From positions 124,001-188,000 of the forward strand of contig CAMDBB010000002.1 in NCBI GenBank assembly GCA_945889195.1: a stretch of DNA of 64,000 nt, in the 5' to 3' direction. A program made the translations under genes and the position numbers. The stretch is from Bifidobacterium breve. Its GTDB lineage: Bacteria; Actinomycetota; Actinomycetes; Nanopelagicales; Nanopelagicaceae. The notes below the pieces were generated by a model. That model did not search any database. It was not told the DNA's origin and saw only the letters and a list, made by a program, of their open reading frames with translations. Below are positions 22,835 through 58,180 of this stretch, one piece after another. Positions within the stretch are counted from its first letter, which is position 1. Each line of letters opens with the position of its first letter.

Positions 22835-24211
22835 ATGCATCGAGCGGTGAAATGGCTTCCAGCTGCGCTTTTGACCTTTCATATCGCAGCGAAGATTTCT
22901 GCACCCGGACAATCTCTTCTCATGGATTTACTTGCCTACAACGTAATCTGGATAGCCGCCGTTGTTGCAATTACACAAGCGCCACTCATGAACGATCCGA
23001 TTGCACTGGCCTGCACGTGTTTAGCAATCTCATTTTGGGGAATCGGCTCATCACTCAATAGTTACAGCAACTTCTATAGCGTGAGCGAAAGCTCAGATTT
23101 GCTCGCACAGATTTGTTACACACTCTTCTATCCCTTTGCGCTCATTGCCTTGCCTCGAGTAGTCACACGCGGGCGAAAACTCAACCCCATAGAGCTCTTA
23201 GATGCTGCCATATTTGGCCTTGGTATCTCATCGATTGCGACAGCGCTCTTTATCTCACGAGTCTTTCCAGATTCACTTATCAATCTACAAGATCAATTCT
23301 TCTCGCTACTTTTTCCTATCGGAGATTTACTTCTGCTGACACTTTCAGCGGTTGCTGCAATTACACATCGACTACATCCCAGAGCGCTCTTTCTCTTTCT
23401 AGGTTTTGTGCTCTTTAGCCTCTCGGATATTCTCTATCTCTGGCTAGCTATCAACGAGAGTTACCAATTCGGTCAGCTCAGCGATGATGGATGGCTACTG
23501 GGAATTGTTCTGATTGCACTTTCATTCTGGTCGATACCTGCCCGTGATGGACGTGAAATCACCATCCATCCAGTCTTCATTGCCGTCTCAGTATTCATCA
23601 GCCCAACTCTCCTTGCTTATTCAGCACTTCGTCCTGGAGTTTTTCCTATCTTTATTATCGCTCCCACAATTGCAACTTTGTTCTTGGCCTTTATTCGCAT
23701 GACTATCGTCATTAGGCAGGCGCGAAATCTAGGTGAAGAGAAGGTATTGGCGCGCACCGATGAACTAACGGGCCTTCCTAATCGCAGACGGTTGATTGCA
23801 GATTTAGAAACTTTTTCAAAGAGCGAAGGTGCTCTTCTGCTCCTTGACCTCAATCAATTTAAACCGGTCAATGATCAATATGGCCACGAGTTCGGCAATC
23901 TTGTTCTGCAACAAGTGGCACAACGATTTAGCCGCTCACTTCCTACTGGCGCTGTCCTCGCCCGTCTAGGCGGCGATGAATTTGGAGTCCTGGTCAACGG
24001 CAACTACGAGCAGACGCTGGAAGCTGCTTACGCGTTGGAGGCGACGTTGAGCTATCCCTTTGTGATTGAAGGAAACTCAATCAAGATTGGAGTGAGCGTC
24101 GGCCATGTGCAAAATGATGGTTCGCATAACGCGTTAGAGCGAGCAGATGCAGCAATGTATGAAGCAAAGCGCAGCGGAGTTGGAGTTGTGCGGGCTCAGC
24201 CAGTCTTATGA
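22835..24211 (+). CDS. Membrane-bound diguanylate cyclase (GGDEF domain)
   Basis: The 458-residue protein has eight or nine hydrophobic segments over residues 1-290, then a GGDEF domain with ARTDELTGLPNRRRL, LLLLDLNQFKPVNDQYGH and the intact active-site motif RLGGDEFGVLV near residue 380. It would make c-di-GMP at the membrane. An RxxD inhibitory site cannot be confirmed by eye (LPTGAVLARLGG precedes the motif). No EAL or HD-GYP partner is encoded in the window. The end overlaps the convergent YeeE gene by 16 bases. The N-terminal sensor has no recognised family. Confidence 0.9.
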   Translation: MHRAVKWLPAALLTFHIAAKISAPGQSLLMDLLAYNVIWIAAVVAITQAPLMNDPIALACTCLAISFWGIGSSLNSYSNFYSVSESSDLLAQICYTLFYPFALIALPRVVTRGRKLNPIELLDAAIFGLGISSIATALFISRVFPDSLINLQDQFFSLLFPIGDLLLLTLSAVAAITHRLHPRALFLFLGFVLFSLSDILYLWLAINESYQFGQLSDDGWLLGIVLIALSFWSIPARDGREITIHPVFIAVSVFISPTLLAYSALRPGVFPIFIIAPTIATLFLAFIRMTIVIRQARNLGEEKVLARTDELTGLPNRRRLIADLETFSKSEGALLLLDLNQFKPVNDQYGHEFGNLVLQQVAQRFSRSLPTGAVLARLGGDEFGVLVNGNYEQTLEAAYALEATLSYPFVIEGNSIKIGVSVGHVQNDGSHNALERADAAMYEAKRSGVGVVRAQPVL

Positions 24212-25437
24212 AGCTTTAACTTGATTCCTACAAAAGATCCTAGGAATACAAAGATAAAGAAGATCCAGCCAGAGAGTGCAAATGCTTGAGTACCCGATAG
24301 CAGCACACCAATGGTGCAGCCGAGTGAGGTCATTGATCCCCAACCTAAAGCGACTCCACCGAGCAACGCTGTGCTGGTATTTGTAACTGTAAGACGTGAT
24401 GGCTTAAAGCGTCCGCCAGCGAAAGCTGCAGCAAATGAAGAGCCAATAATGCCGATGACGAGCCAACCATTATTTGTCAGCGTCTCGGTCACTACTGCAA
24501 TACAACCTGCCATGCGATCGAGGCCAGTAAGAGTTTCTGGTCCAATTCCATTGGAGTTCATAAAGGTGCGCGCAGTTGTGCTCAATTGACGAGTAACACC
24601 GAGTGGTTCAACACGTAGGTAGGCAACAGTGCCAACAACGCCAACAAGTAGACCTGTTGTAATTGGGCTCCAGCGTTCGAAGATTAACTTCTTAAGTGCT
24701 TGGCTCAAGGAAAGTGTGCTGGCGCTACTTCTAATTGGCTCTGAGTTAACGCCTTTTTTCATCACGAAGATTGCTAGCGCTAAAAGGACAGCCATCGTCA
24801 GAACGAGTGATCCTGAATATCCAATGTAATGCGGCAACCACAGAGTTGGTGCATCAGAGATCGCGTTGAGATAGAACCAGTTCCAGGTAAGGAATGCGAG
24901 AACAAACCCACCGAGGGTTCCAATTAGCGCAGGTATTGCACGCAAATAACCTTGGCCCAATCGATACAAGTGGCCACTGATACATGCGCCTGAGAGCGCC
25001 ATGCCAATTCCAAAGGTAAAGGCCGAAAGCGCCAATACCCAACTGACTGGTCCAATGTGGGCTGCAGGTGGAAGACGATCTGTTGTTGTATCAGGTAAGA
25101 ACTGCCCAAAGATCAGCGCATAACCAACTGATCCAGTTGCAATGGCAACAAGCACAGAGAGAAAGGGCGTTGTGTTCTTATCTTCAATCCCGTCCCGGAA
25201 GATGCAGAAGAAACAGAAACGACCGCGCTCGAGCAGAAGCCCCAAGCTGATACCAATCAAAAGTGAAATCGGCGCTGTTGAATTGCTGGTATTCGACGAA
25301 AGAATAAATGCAGTAAGTAGCAGCGCTGCGATTACTCCAAATGAGATTGCGGTGCGAATCTTTTCCGCACGGGTCCAGGCAGAAGCAGCAGCCCCGATGG
25401 CGCTGGGGCTGCTGCTCTGCTGTGGATTAATTGAAAT
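24196..25437 (-). CDS. YeeE/YedE (TsuA-type) thiosulfate permease, probable ATT start
   Basis: The polytopic protein carries three Cys-bearing motifs characteristic of thiosulfate-conducting YeeE: ERGRFCFFCIFRD, SGACISGHLYRLG and SLGCTIGVLLSG. It would import thiosulfate as a sulfur source. The first conventional start in frame is TTG at 25260, but the frame upstream is open and encodes KIRTAISFGVIAALLLTAF, a plausible TM helix. An ATT at 25437, overlapping the rhodanese TAA by one base and seven bases after GGGGAG, would give 413 residues. No ATG, GTG or TTG exists between. If ATT is wrong, the CDS starts at 25260. Confidence 0.85.
   Translation of the reverse strand: MSINPQQSSSPSAIGAAASAWTRAEKIRTAISFGVIAALLLTAFILSSNTSNSTAPISLLIGISLGLLLERGRFCFFCIFRDGIEDKNTTPFLSVLVAIATGSVGYALIFGQFLPDTTTDRLPPAAHIGPVSWVLALSAFTFGIGMALSGACISGHLYRLGQGYLRAIPALIGTLGGFVLAFLTWNWFYLNAISDAPTLWLPHYIGYSGSLVLTMAVLLALAIFVMKKGVNSEPIRSSASTLSLSQALKKLIFERWSPITTGLLVGVVGTVAYLRVEPLGVTRQLSTTARTFMNSNGIGPETLTGLDRMAGCIAVVTETLTNNGWLVIGIIGSSFAAAFAGGRFKPSRLTVTNTSTALLGGVALGWGSMTSLGCTIGVLLSGTQAFALSGWIFFIFVFLGSFVGIKLKLHKTG
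25384..25416 (-). promoter_or_regulatory. Strong hairpin at the rhodanese-permease junction
   Basis: AGCAGCAGCCCC (25384-25395) and GGGGCTGCTGCT (25405-25416) form a perfect 12-base-pair stem with a nine-base loop. No T run follows on either strand, so it is not a classical terminator. It lies inside the proposed permease N-terminus and could limit expression of that gene relative to the rhodanese. Confidence 0.5.
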
Positions 25438-26384
25438 TACGCTGCTCCCCAGATGGTTCCAGCGTTGTTAACGATTGGAACACCGACAGAGTTACCGTAT
25501 TCAGTCCATGAACCGTCGTAGTTCTTGACGTTGTAGCCCAAGATCTCGCTAAGGACGAACCATGTAAGAGATGAGCGCTCTCCGATACGGCAGTAAGTAA
25601 TGATGTTCTGCTTTCCATCGACGCCCTTATCTGCGTAGAGCTTCTTTAGCTCTGCAACAGACTTAAAGGTTCCATCAGCGTTCACATTTGCACCCCAAGG
25701 GACATTGATTGCACCTGGGATGTGGCCTGCACGAACTGCGAGTTCCTGGAATCCTGGAGCTGCGAAGATCTTGCCGTTGAATTCATCAGCGCCGCGGATA
25801 TCGATGAGATCTGCCTTAACGCGCTTCTTTGCAACTGGAAGAACATCGTTGATCAAAGTTGCACGTAGAGCCTTATCAGCCTTTGTTGCGACAAAGTTTC
25901 CAGCTGAGAATGTTGGTACCGCAGTTGTGAGTGGACGTCCATCCTTCTCCCACTTCACGCGACCGCCATCAAGGACGCGTACATCCTTCTGACCGTAGAT
26001 GTTAAAGATCCATGCTCCCCATGCAGCGAACCAGTTGTTCTTATCGCCGTAGAGAACAACAGTTGTGTCATCGCTGATGCCAGCCTTCTGAACCAACTTG
26101 CTGAAGTTCTTAGCATTGATGATGTCGCGGTTTACTGTGTCAACGAGATCTGTGTGCCAAACAAACTTAATTGCATTCTTAATGTGGCCACGCTCGTAAA
26201 GTCCTGGTTCAGTGCTTACTTCAATGATGCGGACCTTAGGATTATCAACATTTGCTTCCAACCAATCCGGCTGCGCAACTGAGCGAGCCTGGTTCTTTGG
26301 AGCCGCGTTTGCTGGAACTACTCCAACAGTTGAAACGAGTCCAGCAACAACTGCTGCTGCAAGTGCTTTCTTCAAGATAGACAT
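25437..26384 (-). CDS. Exported rhodanese (thiosulfate sulfurtransferase)
   Basis: The 315-residue protein has a signal peptide (ALAAAVVAGLVSTVGVVPANA) and two rhodanese domains. The N-terminal domain is catalytically silent (VVLYGDKNNWFAAWGAWIF at the loop position). The C-terminal domain has the active-site Cys near residue 265 in ITYCRIGERSS, the loop of thiosulfate:cyanide sulfurtransferases (SseA/CysA2 type). It would move sulfane sulfur from thiosulfate outside the membrane. It lies between a Cys-rich leader peptide and the YeeE-type permease, so the three form a sulfur-acquisition unit. A GGAA ribosome site precedes the ATG. Confidence 0.93.
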   Translation of the reverse strand: MSILKKALAAAVVAGLVSTVGVVPANAAPKNQARSVAQPDWLEANVDNPKVRIIEVSTEPGLYERGHIKNAIKFVWHTDLVDTVNRDIINAKNFSKLVQKAGISDDTTVVLYGDKNNWFAAWGAWIFNIYGQKDVRVLDGGRVKWEKDGRPLTTAVPTFSAGNFVATKADKALRATLINDVLPVAKKRVKADLIDIRGADEFNGKIFAAPGFQELAVRAGHIPGAINVPWGANVNADGTFKSVAELKKLYADKGVDGKQNIITYCRIGERSSLTWFVLSEILGYNVKNYDGSWTEYGNSVGVPIVNNAGTIWGAA

Positions 26385-26463
26385 TATTTTTCCATTTCTA
26401 AGAGTGAATTTGATTTAAGGTAAATCGAAAATAAATGAAATTAAAAAAGTTTTGAGGTTTTAC

Positions 26464-26529
26464 TTAAAGACAGCAGCTGGTGCTGTTGATGCGGCAGTAG
26501 TCAATAACGCGACGCTTAATGAAGAACAT
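26464..26529 (-). CDS. Cys-rich leader peptide of the sulfur operon (21 residues)
   Basis: The ATG at 26529 opens MFFIKRRVIDYCRINSTSCC-L and stops at 26464, 80 bases before the rhodanese start. The RRVIDYCRI core resembles short actinobacterial leader peptides found ahead of sulfur and cysteine genes (basic pair, aliphatic, Asp, aromatic/Leu, Cys, Arg pattern). Three Cys codons, two adjacent near the end, would stall ribosomes when Cys-tRNA is scarce. A small hairpin (ACAGCA-ccagc-TGCTGT) covers the last Cys codons. The peptide is probably cis-acting rather than functional itself. GTGAG lies five bases before the ATG. Confidence 0.68.
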   Translation of the reverse strand: MFFIKRRVIDYCRINSTSCCL

Positions 26530-26593
26530 CGTGACTCACTTTCCGCTTAGTTGTGGCTAGGTGAGAAAGATAAAGAGAAACTTGCGCTTTGTA

Positions 26594-26629
26594 AAAACGC
26601 TAATGATTTGCAGATGCAAGAAAACGCTA
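26594..26629. repeat. Direct repeat AAAACGCTA flanking a small inverted repeat
   Basis: AAAACGCTA occurs at 26594-26602 and 26621-26629; between them is TTGCA-GA-TGCAA (608-619). The region is upstream of the leader peptide on the minus strand and may hold the operator/promoter of the sulfur operon. The second copy overlaps the photolyase stop codon. Confidence 0.35.
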
Positions 26630-56098: not shown

Positions 56099-56506
56099 TT
56101 ACTTTACGCAGGCAGCGCAGGTGCCATAGATGGCAAAGTGCGTGACATCGGTCTTAAAGCCGTAGTCATCAGATAAATTCTGAACAAAGTTAGCTGCCAC
56201 ATCAATCGGCGCATCTCCCACTGATCCGCAAGTACCGCAGACAAGGTGCAGATGAGTTAACTCTTCAGCTGCGTGGTAGGTGGCTCCACCGTGGCCTAAG
56301 TGGGTGTGTTGCACAAGACCTACGTTTTCAAGTGTTTCCAAGTTGCGATAGACCGTAGATAAGTTAATTCCAGGATGTGTCTGGCGCACCTTCTCTGCAA
56401 CCTCTTCAGGCGTTGCATGCCCGAGCGAGCGCACAGCAGAAAGCACTAGCTCGCGTTGAGGGGTAAGGCGCAAGCCCTTTTCATGAAGTTCGTGTTTTCC
56501 AGCCAT
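56099..56506 (-). CDS. Fur-family metal-responsive repressor
   Basis: The 135-residue protein has the Fur winged helix (RLTPQRELVLSAVRSLGHATPEEVA; INLSTVYRNLETLENVGLV) and a C-terminal domain with HLHLVCGTCGSV and GTCAACVK, two CxxC pairs for structural zinc, plus His-rich HTHLGHGGATYH. Whether it senses iron, zinc or nickel cannot be decided. TAGACT lies six bases before the ATG. ygfZ and the small membrane genes follow in the same direction. Confidence 0.92.
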   Translation of the reverse strand: MAGKHELHEKGLRLTPQRELVLSAVRSLGHATPEEVAEKVRQTHPGINLSTVYRNLETLENVGLVQHTHLGHGGATYHAAEELTHLHLVCGTCGSVGDAPIDVAANFVQNLSDDYGFKTDVTHFAIYGTCAACVK

Positions 56507-56532: not shown

Positions 56533-56979
56533 TTACTTAGACGTGAAACGTAGGCCGAGCAGGTACATCTCGCAGCCCAAGCAGTAGTTAAACGCTGCAT
56601 TGAGGAACGCTGCCGCCAGCGCCATACCCACTGCCACCGTAAAGACCGCGCTAGATCCAGCAACAGCGCCTAAGACGCCAACGAGTGCAAAGCCAAACCC
56701 AACAGCCTGAGCAAACTTAGGTGGGCGCACATCTTCTGTTGGTGCTTCCTTCTTAAGTCTTGGCTTCACTAAAGTCTTGAAGATAAACGCATATGGTGTG
56801 AACTGTGGACCTCGCACTGCGCCAATGAAGAAGACAAGTCCCTGCACCGCCAATAACCAAGTGCTCTGAGTAACCAAAGCAATCGCCAAAACTGTTGTTG
56901 TAATCGCAGCACCAAATCGTGGACCGCGCGCATCGATATAGATCTTTGCAACTTCTGGCTTATTGAGAATCTCAGACAT
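56533..56979 (-). CDS. DUF4395 membrane protein
   Basis: The 148-residue protein has four hydrophobic segments (ITTTVLAIALVTQSTWLLAV; QGLVFFIGAVRG; VGFGFALVGVLGAVAGSSAV; VGMALAAAFLNAAFNYCLGCE) and the FNYCLGCEMYLLG ending, a redox-like CxxC motif typical of DUF4395. The neighbouring thioredoxin-like gene suggests a membrane thiol-redox pair, as seen in other Actinobacteria. TATCCT precedes the ATG by six bases. Confidence 0.86.
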   Translation of the reverse strand: MSEILNKPEVAKIYIDARGPRFGAAITTTVLAIALVTQSTWLLAVQGLVFFIGAVRGPQFTPYAFIFKTLVKPRLKKEAPTEDVRPPKFAQAVGFGFALVGVLGAVAGSSAVFTVAVGMALAAAFLNAAFNYCLGCEMYLLGLRFTSK

Positions 56980-56985
56980 GTGTAA

Positions 56986-56991
56986 AGGATA
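56986..56991 (-). promoter_or_regulatory. Putative leaderless -10 element of the DUF4395 gene
   Basis: TATCCT-TTACAC-ATG on the minus strand. Confidence 0.45.
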
Positions 56992-57035
56992 GGCAAGTAC
57001 CTTGATATGTGCGAGTTGCGAAGTACTTGCAGGAA

Positions 57036-57449
57036 TTATCGAATGGCCTCAAGCGCCTCAAGCACCTGCTCGCGCTTAGGTGTACCTGCAGCACGGCCTA
57101 CTTCAATGCCATCTTTGTTGATAAAGATTGTCGTCGGTGTTGAGCGAATATCTAGCTCTCGTACCAATTCAAGATGAGATTCAGCATCAACCTGAATGTG
57201 CTTCACATCGTTCATCGTCTGCACCATCTGCGACAACAAGGCATGGGTAGCCCGGCACGGAGTACAGAAGGCTGATGAGAACTGCACCATCGTCGCCCGT
57301 GATCCCAGAGATTGCCCCAATACCTGCTCGCTCAAGCGATGGCCTGGAATAGCCTTGTTAGACCTAATCGCGCCTGATTTACGCGTCCACCAGAACCCAT
57401 ATGCCGATGCCAGCACCAGCACAATAAGAAGTGGAAGATAACTTTTCAC
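57036..57449 (-). CDS. Membrane-anchored thioredoxin-like protein
   Basis: From GTG 57449 the 137-residue protein has an N-terminal signal anchor ([18 protein letters not shown]) and a thioredoxin fold with active site [18 protein letters not shown] (CTPC) and the cis-Pro in [12 protein letters not shown]. It probably acts outside the membrane with DUF4395. A TTG at 57467 would add six residues but coincides with the glnR start. Mtb has thiX (Rv0816c) in the same place beside glnR. Confidence 0.9.
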
Positions 57450-57454
57450 AAGAG

Positions 57455-57461
57455 TATTCTC
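57455..57461. promoter_or_regulatory. Overlapping divergent -10 elements (glnR and thioredoxin gene)
   Basis: Plus strand TATTCT (57455-57460) is six bases before the glnR ATG. Minus strand GAGAAT (57461-57456) is six bases before the thioredoxin GTG. They overlap by five base pairs, the same arrangement as at 33528-33534. Confidence 0.42.
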
Positions 57462-57466
57462 ACACA

Positions 57467-58180
57467 ATGGCCAAGGTGTTGCTACTTACTAATTCGCAAG
57501 GAGCGAGCGCAGAAGTTCTTCCTGCTCTCGGTCTTTTGCAGCACACCTGCAAAGTCGCACCTCTTGAAGCATCTGTTCTTGTAGACACACCAGTCATGGA
57601 TATCGTCTTCGTCGATGCTCGTCGTGATCTACCAACAGCTAAATCACTCACACGCTTACTTTCCACCACAGGCGTTGGTGCGCCCATCATCGCAATTACC
57701 ACAGAAGGCGGCCTCTCTGCATTCACTGCAGATTGGGGCGCAAACGATGTCATCCTCGATACAGCAGGCCCTGCAGAAGTAGATGCACGTATCCGCATCG
57801 CAGTCGGCGCACACATCGCAGCGCTTGAAGCACTTGACCCAACTTCTTCAGAAATCCGCCAAGGCGATGTCGTCATTGATGAAAACACCTACACCGCCAA
57901 GATCAAGGGAACATCACTTGATCTGACCTTTAAAGAGTTTGAATTACTTAAATACTTAGCCCAACACCCAGGCCGCGTCTTCACGCGTGCACAACTACTT
58001 CAAGAAATCTGGGGCTATGACTACTTCGGTGGAACTCGCACAGTCGATGTTCACATCCGTCGCCTCCGCTCAAAGCTCGGCCCTGAATTTGAATCCATCA
58101 TCGGCACGGTGCGCAACGTTGGCTATCGCTTCACCGTTCAAAACGGTGGCAAGGAAACTCCTGTTTCTGAACTCGTTTAA
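57467..58180 (+). CDS. glnR: GlnR-like OmpR-family regulator of nitrogen metabolism
   Basis: The 237-residue protein has an atypical receiver domain ([36 protein letters not shown], with Asp in VDARRDL) and a winged-helix domain ([60 protein letters not shown]). No histidine kinase is adjacent, as for actinobacterial GlnR, and the order thioredoxin-glnR-mshD matches Rv0816c-Rv0819. GlnR activates glnA, amtB and related genes under nitrogen limitation. The ATG at 57467 is probably leaderless. Confidence 0.9.

Follow-up and report, generated by a model that had tools for sequence, protein, structure and literature searches.

A conserved, probably regulatory cysteine leader peptide and a Nur-box-like promoter dyad ahead of a rhodanese–permease operon in Nanopelagicales

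Ahead of the genes for an exported rhodanese and a YeeE-type permease, a genome of the order Nanopelagicales carries a 21-codon reading frame that is real and conserved, and that is very probably a regulatory cysteine (Cys) leader. The frame lies in a stretch of 64,000 nucleotides (nt), here called the window, which spans positions 124,001 to 188,000 of contig CAMDBB010000002.1 in assembly GCA_945889195.1, deposited as Bifidobacterium breve and placed by the GTDB in the Nanopelagicaceae. The arrangement of leader frame, exported rhodanese and permease had been proposed in an earlier note made from the sequence of the window. We lean towards a reading in which the leader acts in cis to make expression of both genes depend on cysteine supply, by way of a block to Rho. 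The promoter of the leader additionally holds a dyad resembling the binding box of the regulator Nur, a feature shared with other sulfur genes that the earlier note did not foresee. Together, leader and dyad form a concrete candidate for two-layer control of reduced-sulfur supply in the acI group. According to the accessible text of one study, most freshwater lakes have acI as their most abundant group, and these bacteria lack sulfate reduction (PMC5301498), which makes the sensing and securing of reduced sulfur an ecological question.

The case for the frame is built on 29 loci, namely the window and L032-L059, which were collected by similarity of the rhodanese (73-93% identical) with the leader left unused; named relatives in this set are records of Candidatus Planktophila and Candidatus Nanopelagicaceae. 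A peptide of the form RRxID[YF]CR stands upstream of the rhodanese in all 29, its stop codon lying 62-97 nt before the rhodanese start (79 nt from TAA to ATG in the window). The nine core codons occur in 22 distinct DNA versions that encode only six peptides, and the third codon position is the most variable, with 2.44 letters per column vs 1.33 and 1.22 at the other positions. Synonymous differences amount to 0.703 per site and non-synonymous ones to 0.063 (dN/dS 0.089), as obtained by NG86 counting over all pairs of sequences that are related by descent, with no tree. This 29-locus conservation and synonymous bias rule out a chance open frame, and such conservation with mostly synonymous change is what the earlier note had proposed to look for in relatives. 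No leader precedes the rhodanese at the 51 remoter loci examined, which come from other taxa and share at most 66% identity (L060-L111 minus L087, which came without upstream DNA). As a curatorial aside, seven loci of the set (L035, L040, L043, L044, L046, L057 and L058) are titled "Bifidobacterium breve" despite the Planktophila-like placement of these freshwater-type metagenome-assembled genomes, probably through a naming fault.

Leaders of the same build also precede DUF4395 operons (21 read) and cysK-like genes (5 read), and 30 more come from the class-wide search described below. When these 85 leaders are aligned on the RR motif, a Cys six residues past the R8/L8 position (hereafter R+6) is present in every one of them, though only the rhodanese group was gathered blind to the leader, and the models or patterns used to collect the other three are biased towards the motif. 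The total number of Cys ranges from one to eight per leader. The Cys of the DxC element, by comparison, occurs in 29/29 rhodanese, 6/21 DUF4395, 1/5 cysK and 30/30 class-wide leaders, so that all rhodanese leaders share the RRxxDxCR core plus the Cys at R+6 with the class-wide relatives. Most rhodanese leaders contain two Cys (23/29) and the rest three (6/29), and in 22/29 the stop codon comes directly after the last Cys. The earlier note had pointed to two adjacent Cys codons. Such adjacency is found in only 5/29 rhodanese leaders, and the pair is accordingly rejected as the conserved sensor; the fixed feature is a single Cys placed six residues beyond RRxxDxxR. A conserved part reduced to a single Cys at a set distance from RRxxDxxR argues for constraint on the peptide as such, beyond any run of Cys codons.

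Searches with a known leader family place this peptide among its relatives. Against NCBIfam NF042933, the "Ms5788A family Cys-rich leader peptide", the window peptide scores 19.4 bits (E 6e-4), below the curated cut-off of 45, and none of 296 genomes of the order exceeds that cut-off; at E ≤ 1 the order-wide search was too noisy to count, with matches in 199/296 genomes and in 6/14 controls. Across the class, matches at E ≤ 0.01 were obtained in 118/148 genomes (18 above the cut-off) and in 1/14 control genomes. The 30 best of these loci read KRRAVDLCRVA..C, and they hold a homologue of the window rhodanese in 30/30 cases and DUF4395 in 16/30. A model made from leaders of the order itself finds matches at E ≤ 0.001 in 79/112 genomes at least 90% complete, some of the leaders matched being themselves part of the model. 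Judged by build and place, and not by curated score, the window leader is a divergent relative of NF042933, in keeping with the likeness to actinobacterial Cys leaders suggested previously. The kind of leader is thus known in actinobacteria; what is new is the single Cys at a fixed place, together with the promoter common to sulfur genes.

The likeness to the Ms5788A leader of Mycobacterium smegmatis, which lies before a cysA2-type rhodanese, extends to the core KRRx[VI]DxCR, the Cys at R+6 and the homologous rhodanese downstream. Unlike it, the window leader is predicted to have a 5' untranslated region (5'UTR) rather than a leaderless start, the rhodanese is exported, and a permease follows. 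The predicted -10 element of the window begins 43 nt before the leader ATG; in 9/29 relatives it lies just 12-13 nt before it, as would be expected of a leaderless start. Furthermore, class-wide relatives reach eight Cys, whereas the rhodanese leaders here have two or three and no Cys run. Similar small upstream frames with Cys codons near the stop and sulfur genes behind them are the polycysteine leaderless short open reading frames (ORFs) of mycobacteria (Canestrari et al., 2020, as cited in the accessible text of PMC9031893 and PMC13236596). In M. smegmatis, small ORFs with contiguous Cys codons are reported to attenuate the genes behind them according to how much cysteine is available (PMC9031893, accessible text), and a small Cys-rich ORF ahead of cysA2 (Rv0815) is likewise on record for mycobacteria (PMC4633059, accessible text). 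The leaders of the window's relatives, known here from sequence, differ from these in that contiguous Cys are not conserved, and the window itself has two adjacent Cys where a polycysteine frame would have a run. Another study lists candidates for cys leaders in Mycobacterium, Propionibacterium acnes and Bifidobacterium longum and, for the mycobacterial ones without terminators, weakly proposes Rho (PMC1262725). The window leader resembles these in the missing terminator and the suggested role of Rho; the accessible part of that study describes runs of Cys codons and, as far as it goes, mentions neither a rhodanese-permease operon nor a dyad. Five class-wide loci (L126, L129, L130, L134 and L142) show, by eye, a GCGGAAG...CTTCCGC-like inverted repeat directly after the leader stop, unlike acI.

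How such a leader might act can be sketched as follows. With ample cysteine, the ribosome would complete the 21 codons and depart, and the naked, G-poor stretch of 79 nt, in which C outweighs G, would then let Rho stop transcription before the rhodanese. With Cys-tRNA scarce, the ribosome would halt at Cys19-Cys20 beside the stop codon, aided perhaps by the RRxxDxxR motif that is conserved in the nascent chain, and the halted ribosome would cover the start of the gap, shielding it from Rho so that transcription could continue. The Nur-box-like promoter site would add a second control, at the level of DNA, common to other sulfur genes. We infer the stalling, the part of Rho and the sign of the response from sequence features; granted that the frame is a regulatory Cys leader, a Rho step seems to us somewhat better supported than its absence. 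A rho gene is encoded in the genome, and together with the unstructured, C-over-G stretch behind the leader stop it is suggestive of a Rho-dependent leader of the TnaC type. C exceeds G in 29/29 gaps vs 1/9 leader 5'UTRs and 7/25 stretches upstream of the dyad. On the RNA strand G makes up 6.3% of the gap vs 21.4% in 92 other upstream regions, the C/G ratio is 3.5 vs 1.1, and the folding z of the gap plus 20 nt averages +0.88, less stable than shuffles, vs -0.96 in the background. No intrinsic terminator or sequestering hairpin appears in the gap; that of the window folds at -4.1 kcal/mol, and the sole terminator-like match of the region falls before the leader and is no more than chance would give. 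The stretch from leader to rhodanese start is likewise less stable than its shuffles (z +0.86, 29 loci). An Rfam scan of the window returned three tRNAs only.

Several points weigh against this reading, beginning with the yardsticks of the composition: the 92 background regions may include coding DNA, and the shuffles kept single-base composition only. Class-wide, where L123 was omitted from the count, C exceeds G in 24/29 gaps but also in 20/29 upstream controls, so that the Rho signature is weak there. Two Cys in 23/29 rhodanese leaders, and a single one in 14/21 DUF4395 leaders, are few for pure codon starvation. Moreover, the leader is missing at the window's own DUF4395 operon and is therefore dispensable at that site. 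Finally, the poverty in G may equally suit an open ribosome-binding site and need not indicate Rho.

This last point leads to translational control, in which the position of the ribosome on the leader would alter access to the rhodanese ribosome-binding site without any termination. A Shine-Dalgarno-like sequence at the rhodanese start in 29 loci would suit such a mechanism, which we nevertheless consider unlikely, since the positive folding scores of both stretches speak against a sequestering structure and a gap of 62-97 nt is long for termination-reinitiation coupling. The mycobacterial case is termed translation attenuation in the accessible text of a 2026 paper (PMC13236596). An arrest peptide appears comparably improbable: here the RRxxDxxR chain and Cys would stall the ribosome in response to a small molecule or redox state rather than to a shortage of Cys-tRNA. 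TnaC offers the comparison. The same residues recur at the same spacing, up to the invariant Cys at R+6, in acI, Streptomyces-size and Mycobacterium-like genomes, as an arrest peptide would have it, but this breadth is tempered by the motif-favouring way in which three of the four leader groups were assembled.

The remaining alternatives carry far less weight. That constraint acts on the amino acids would also be expected of a functional small protein with no regulatory role, yet the frame always lies 5' of sulfur genes, measures 18-22 residues with a variable start and end, and has disappeared from the DUF4395 operon of the window although the promoter there is kept, all of which makes such a protein very improbable. 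Least credible of all is classical attenuation by competing terminator and antiterminator hairpins, which has its general precedent in amino-acid leaders; the terminator scan and the folding of the gap, less structured than shuffles across the 29 loci, show no terminator, and attenuation of that type is rejected.

The promoter of the leader brings in the second layer of the proposed control. A scan for the -10 consensus performs at chance level by itself (1 found, 1.1 expected), and the element is supported by its conservation. In 25/29 rhodanese loci a dyad close to TGCAAATnATTnGCAA (TGCRAATnATTyGCA) stands exactly 40 nt before a TAnnnT -10, and the four misses (L042, L047, L049 and L050) have a similar dyad at another distance. 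The same spacing holds in 26/28 loci from the leader search (misses L002 and L010), rhodanese and DUF4395 leaders both being covered, with the dyad score and its cut-off of 17 having been set after these same sequences had been viewed. Among class-wide leaders, only 2/29 (L120 and L141) score at least 16. A promoter model (R1), built from 32 of the 43 promoter stretches, many of which it afterwards recovered, locates two places at E ≤ 0.5 in the window's genome, both of which fall in the window: the leader promoter, and 56987-57033 in front of a DUF4395 gene.

This second site retains the dyad and its spacing (56980-57031, minus strand) but has lost the leader that relatives carry there; the -10 is followed by six bases and the ATG, and since it thus starts 12 nt before the ATG the mRNA is probably leaderless. 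The gene after DUF4395 encodes a Fur-family protein whose best solved relative is 3eyy, Nur of Streptomyces coelicolor (E 2e-45; next best 5e-16). In 17/21 DUF4395 leader loci the arrangement runs GlnR, thioredoxin, leader, DUF4395, Nur, YgfZ, and in the other four a rhodanese occupies the position of Nur within the fetched stretch. The Nur box of S. coelicolor is given as tTGCaa-N5-ttGCAA (PMC3919588 and PMC7055735, accessible text), and the dyad core matches it, except that the first site of the window ends in GCGT instead of GCAA. Similar dyads also precede NicO and CbiM genes in the window's relatives, a further point in common with the Streptomyces system; unlike there, the dyad occurs at sulfur promoters as well, at a fixed distance from the -10. 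That the Nur homologue reads the dyad is, in our estimate, evenly balanced. Speaking against it, no covariation is seen among the variable positions (pair 3/11 is complementary in 11/32 sequences, 9.2 expected), and the palindrome consequently rests on its invariant positions. An OmpR/GlnR-type regulator may instead read the site as 11-nt direct repeats, and a GlnR homologue does adjoin the second dyad.

Beyond these promoters, 19 further places of the model in relatives were analysed, comprising 10 NicO, 2 CbiM, 4 cysK-like, 2 metY-like genes and 1 solute-binding-protein gene, all hand-picked from its matches (L184 and L192 included) and with Pfam run on seven of the proteins; of 20 dyad places fetched, 18 are new places of interest other than leaders. 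The distance between the dyad and a TAnnnT is 39-41 nt in 7/7 sulfur and solute-binding loci (exactly 40 in 3) vs 0/12 nickel and cobalt loci. At both metY loci examined, a SAM-IV riboswitch takes the place of the Cys leader, and Cys leaders at cysK and DUF4395 with SAM-IV at metY are what would be expected if each RNA senses the product of its pathway. NicO has no match in the window's genome, where the only two dyad sites found are both on sulfur genes; it is present in 36/55 genomes of the order. Dyads at both nickel and sulfur genes suggest, tentatively, that in freshwater Nanopelagicales one Nur-type regulator governs nickel uptake together with reduced-sulfur assimilation, with an RNA layer matched to the product on top. 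At sulfur promoters, where the -10 follows it at a locked distance of about 40 nt, the box would be activator-like, and at nickel transporter genes repressor-like. The RNA layer would be a peptide-specific leader that senses Cys at cysteine and rhodanese genes, and the SAM-IV riboswitch at metY. If true, the presence of a nickel-type box at sulfur promoters would connect the two in an unexpected way; a single literature search aimed at this turned up no paper connecting the Nur regulon with sulfur assimilation.

Table 1. Coordinates, within the window, of the leader, its promoter and the associated genes.
Feature	Position	Strand	Remark
Dyad TGCAAATCATTAGCGT	26597..26612	minus	resembles the Nur box; -10 exactly 40 nt downstream
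Predicted -35, TTTACA	26590..26595	minus	17-nt spacer
Predicted -10, TATCTT	26567..26572	minus	supported by conservation
Shine-Dalgarno-like GGAAAGTGAG of leader	26535..26544	minus	read from sequence
Leader peptide gene MFFIKRRVIDYCRINSTSCCL	26464..26529	minus	ATG to TAA, 21 codons; conserved in 29/29 loci; NF042933 match below cut-off
Cys12 codon, TGC	26494..26496	minus	in 29/29 rhodanese and 6/21 DUF4395 leaders
Cys19-Cys20 codons, TGC TGT	26470..26475	minus	Cys19 is the invariant one
Leader-rhodanese gap	26385..26463	minus	G-poor, unstructured; candidate Rho-loading stretch
Exported rhodanese	25437..26384	minus	thiosulfate/3-mercaptopyruvate sulfurtransferase type; 315 residues
Strong hairpin	25379..25420	minus	just after the rhodanese stop
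YeeE/TsuA-type permease frame	24196..25437	minus	PF04143; true start uncertain
Second dyad TGCAAGTACTTCGCAA	57016..57031	minus	40 nt before TATCCT; DUF4395-nur promoter; no leader
DUF4395 membrane protein	56533..56979	minus	preceded by a Cys leader in relatives elsewhere in the order
Fur-family regulator, Nur homologue	56099..56506	minus	candidate reader of the dyad
GlnR-type regulator	57431-58180	plus	PF21695 and PF00486; divergent from a thioredoxin-like gene; beside the DUF4395-nur operon

The gene families downstream of the leader suggest that thiosulfate may be used. The rhodanese contains two PF00581 stretches and an N-terminus that by eye resembles a Sec signal peptide. In the window's genome (1.43 Mb, 97.6% complete, 19 contigs), the sulfite reductase domain NIR_SIR (PF01077) has no match at E ≤ 0.01. 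This agrees with the suggestion of the earlier note that the organism may not reduce sulfate, and with the acI strains studied, which are described as being without assimilatory sulfate reduction (PMC5301498, accessible text). The sole PF01507 match is CysD (TIGR02039, 481 bits, cut-off 397), with a CysN-like frame next to it (L172 1417-3680); sulfate is therefore probably activated though not reduced. Without a sulfite reductase having been found, the activated sulfate may serve a purpose other than reduction.

At the junction of rhodanese and permease, the permease would mechanically start at a TTG at 25260 (frame 24196-25260), and no ATG, GTG or TTG is found at a common place across the 29 loci. 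In all 29, however, an in-frame ATT (26) or ATC (3) of the permease overlaps the rhodanese stop (ATT 25437-25435 in the window), and a non-canonical AUU/AUC start coupled to that stop is a possible explanation. A -1 ribosomal frameshift joining the two proteins was considered and set aside: the permease frame is -1 and open, yet no common slippery run was seen, and five loci (L034, L042, L047, L049 and L050) have a stop in that frame just before the overlap codon. A hairpin of -20 to -35 kcal/mol follows within 60 nt of the rhodanese stop in 28/29 loci (25379-25439 in the window), the other (L034) ending at a contig edge, and its stems, as judged by eye, differ by clade yet remain complementary.

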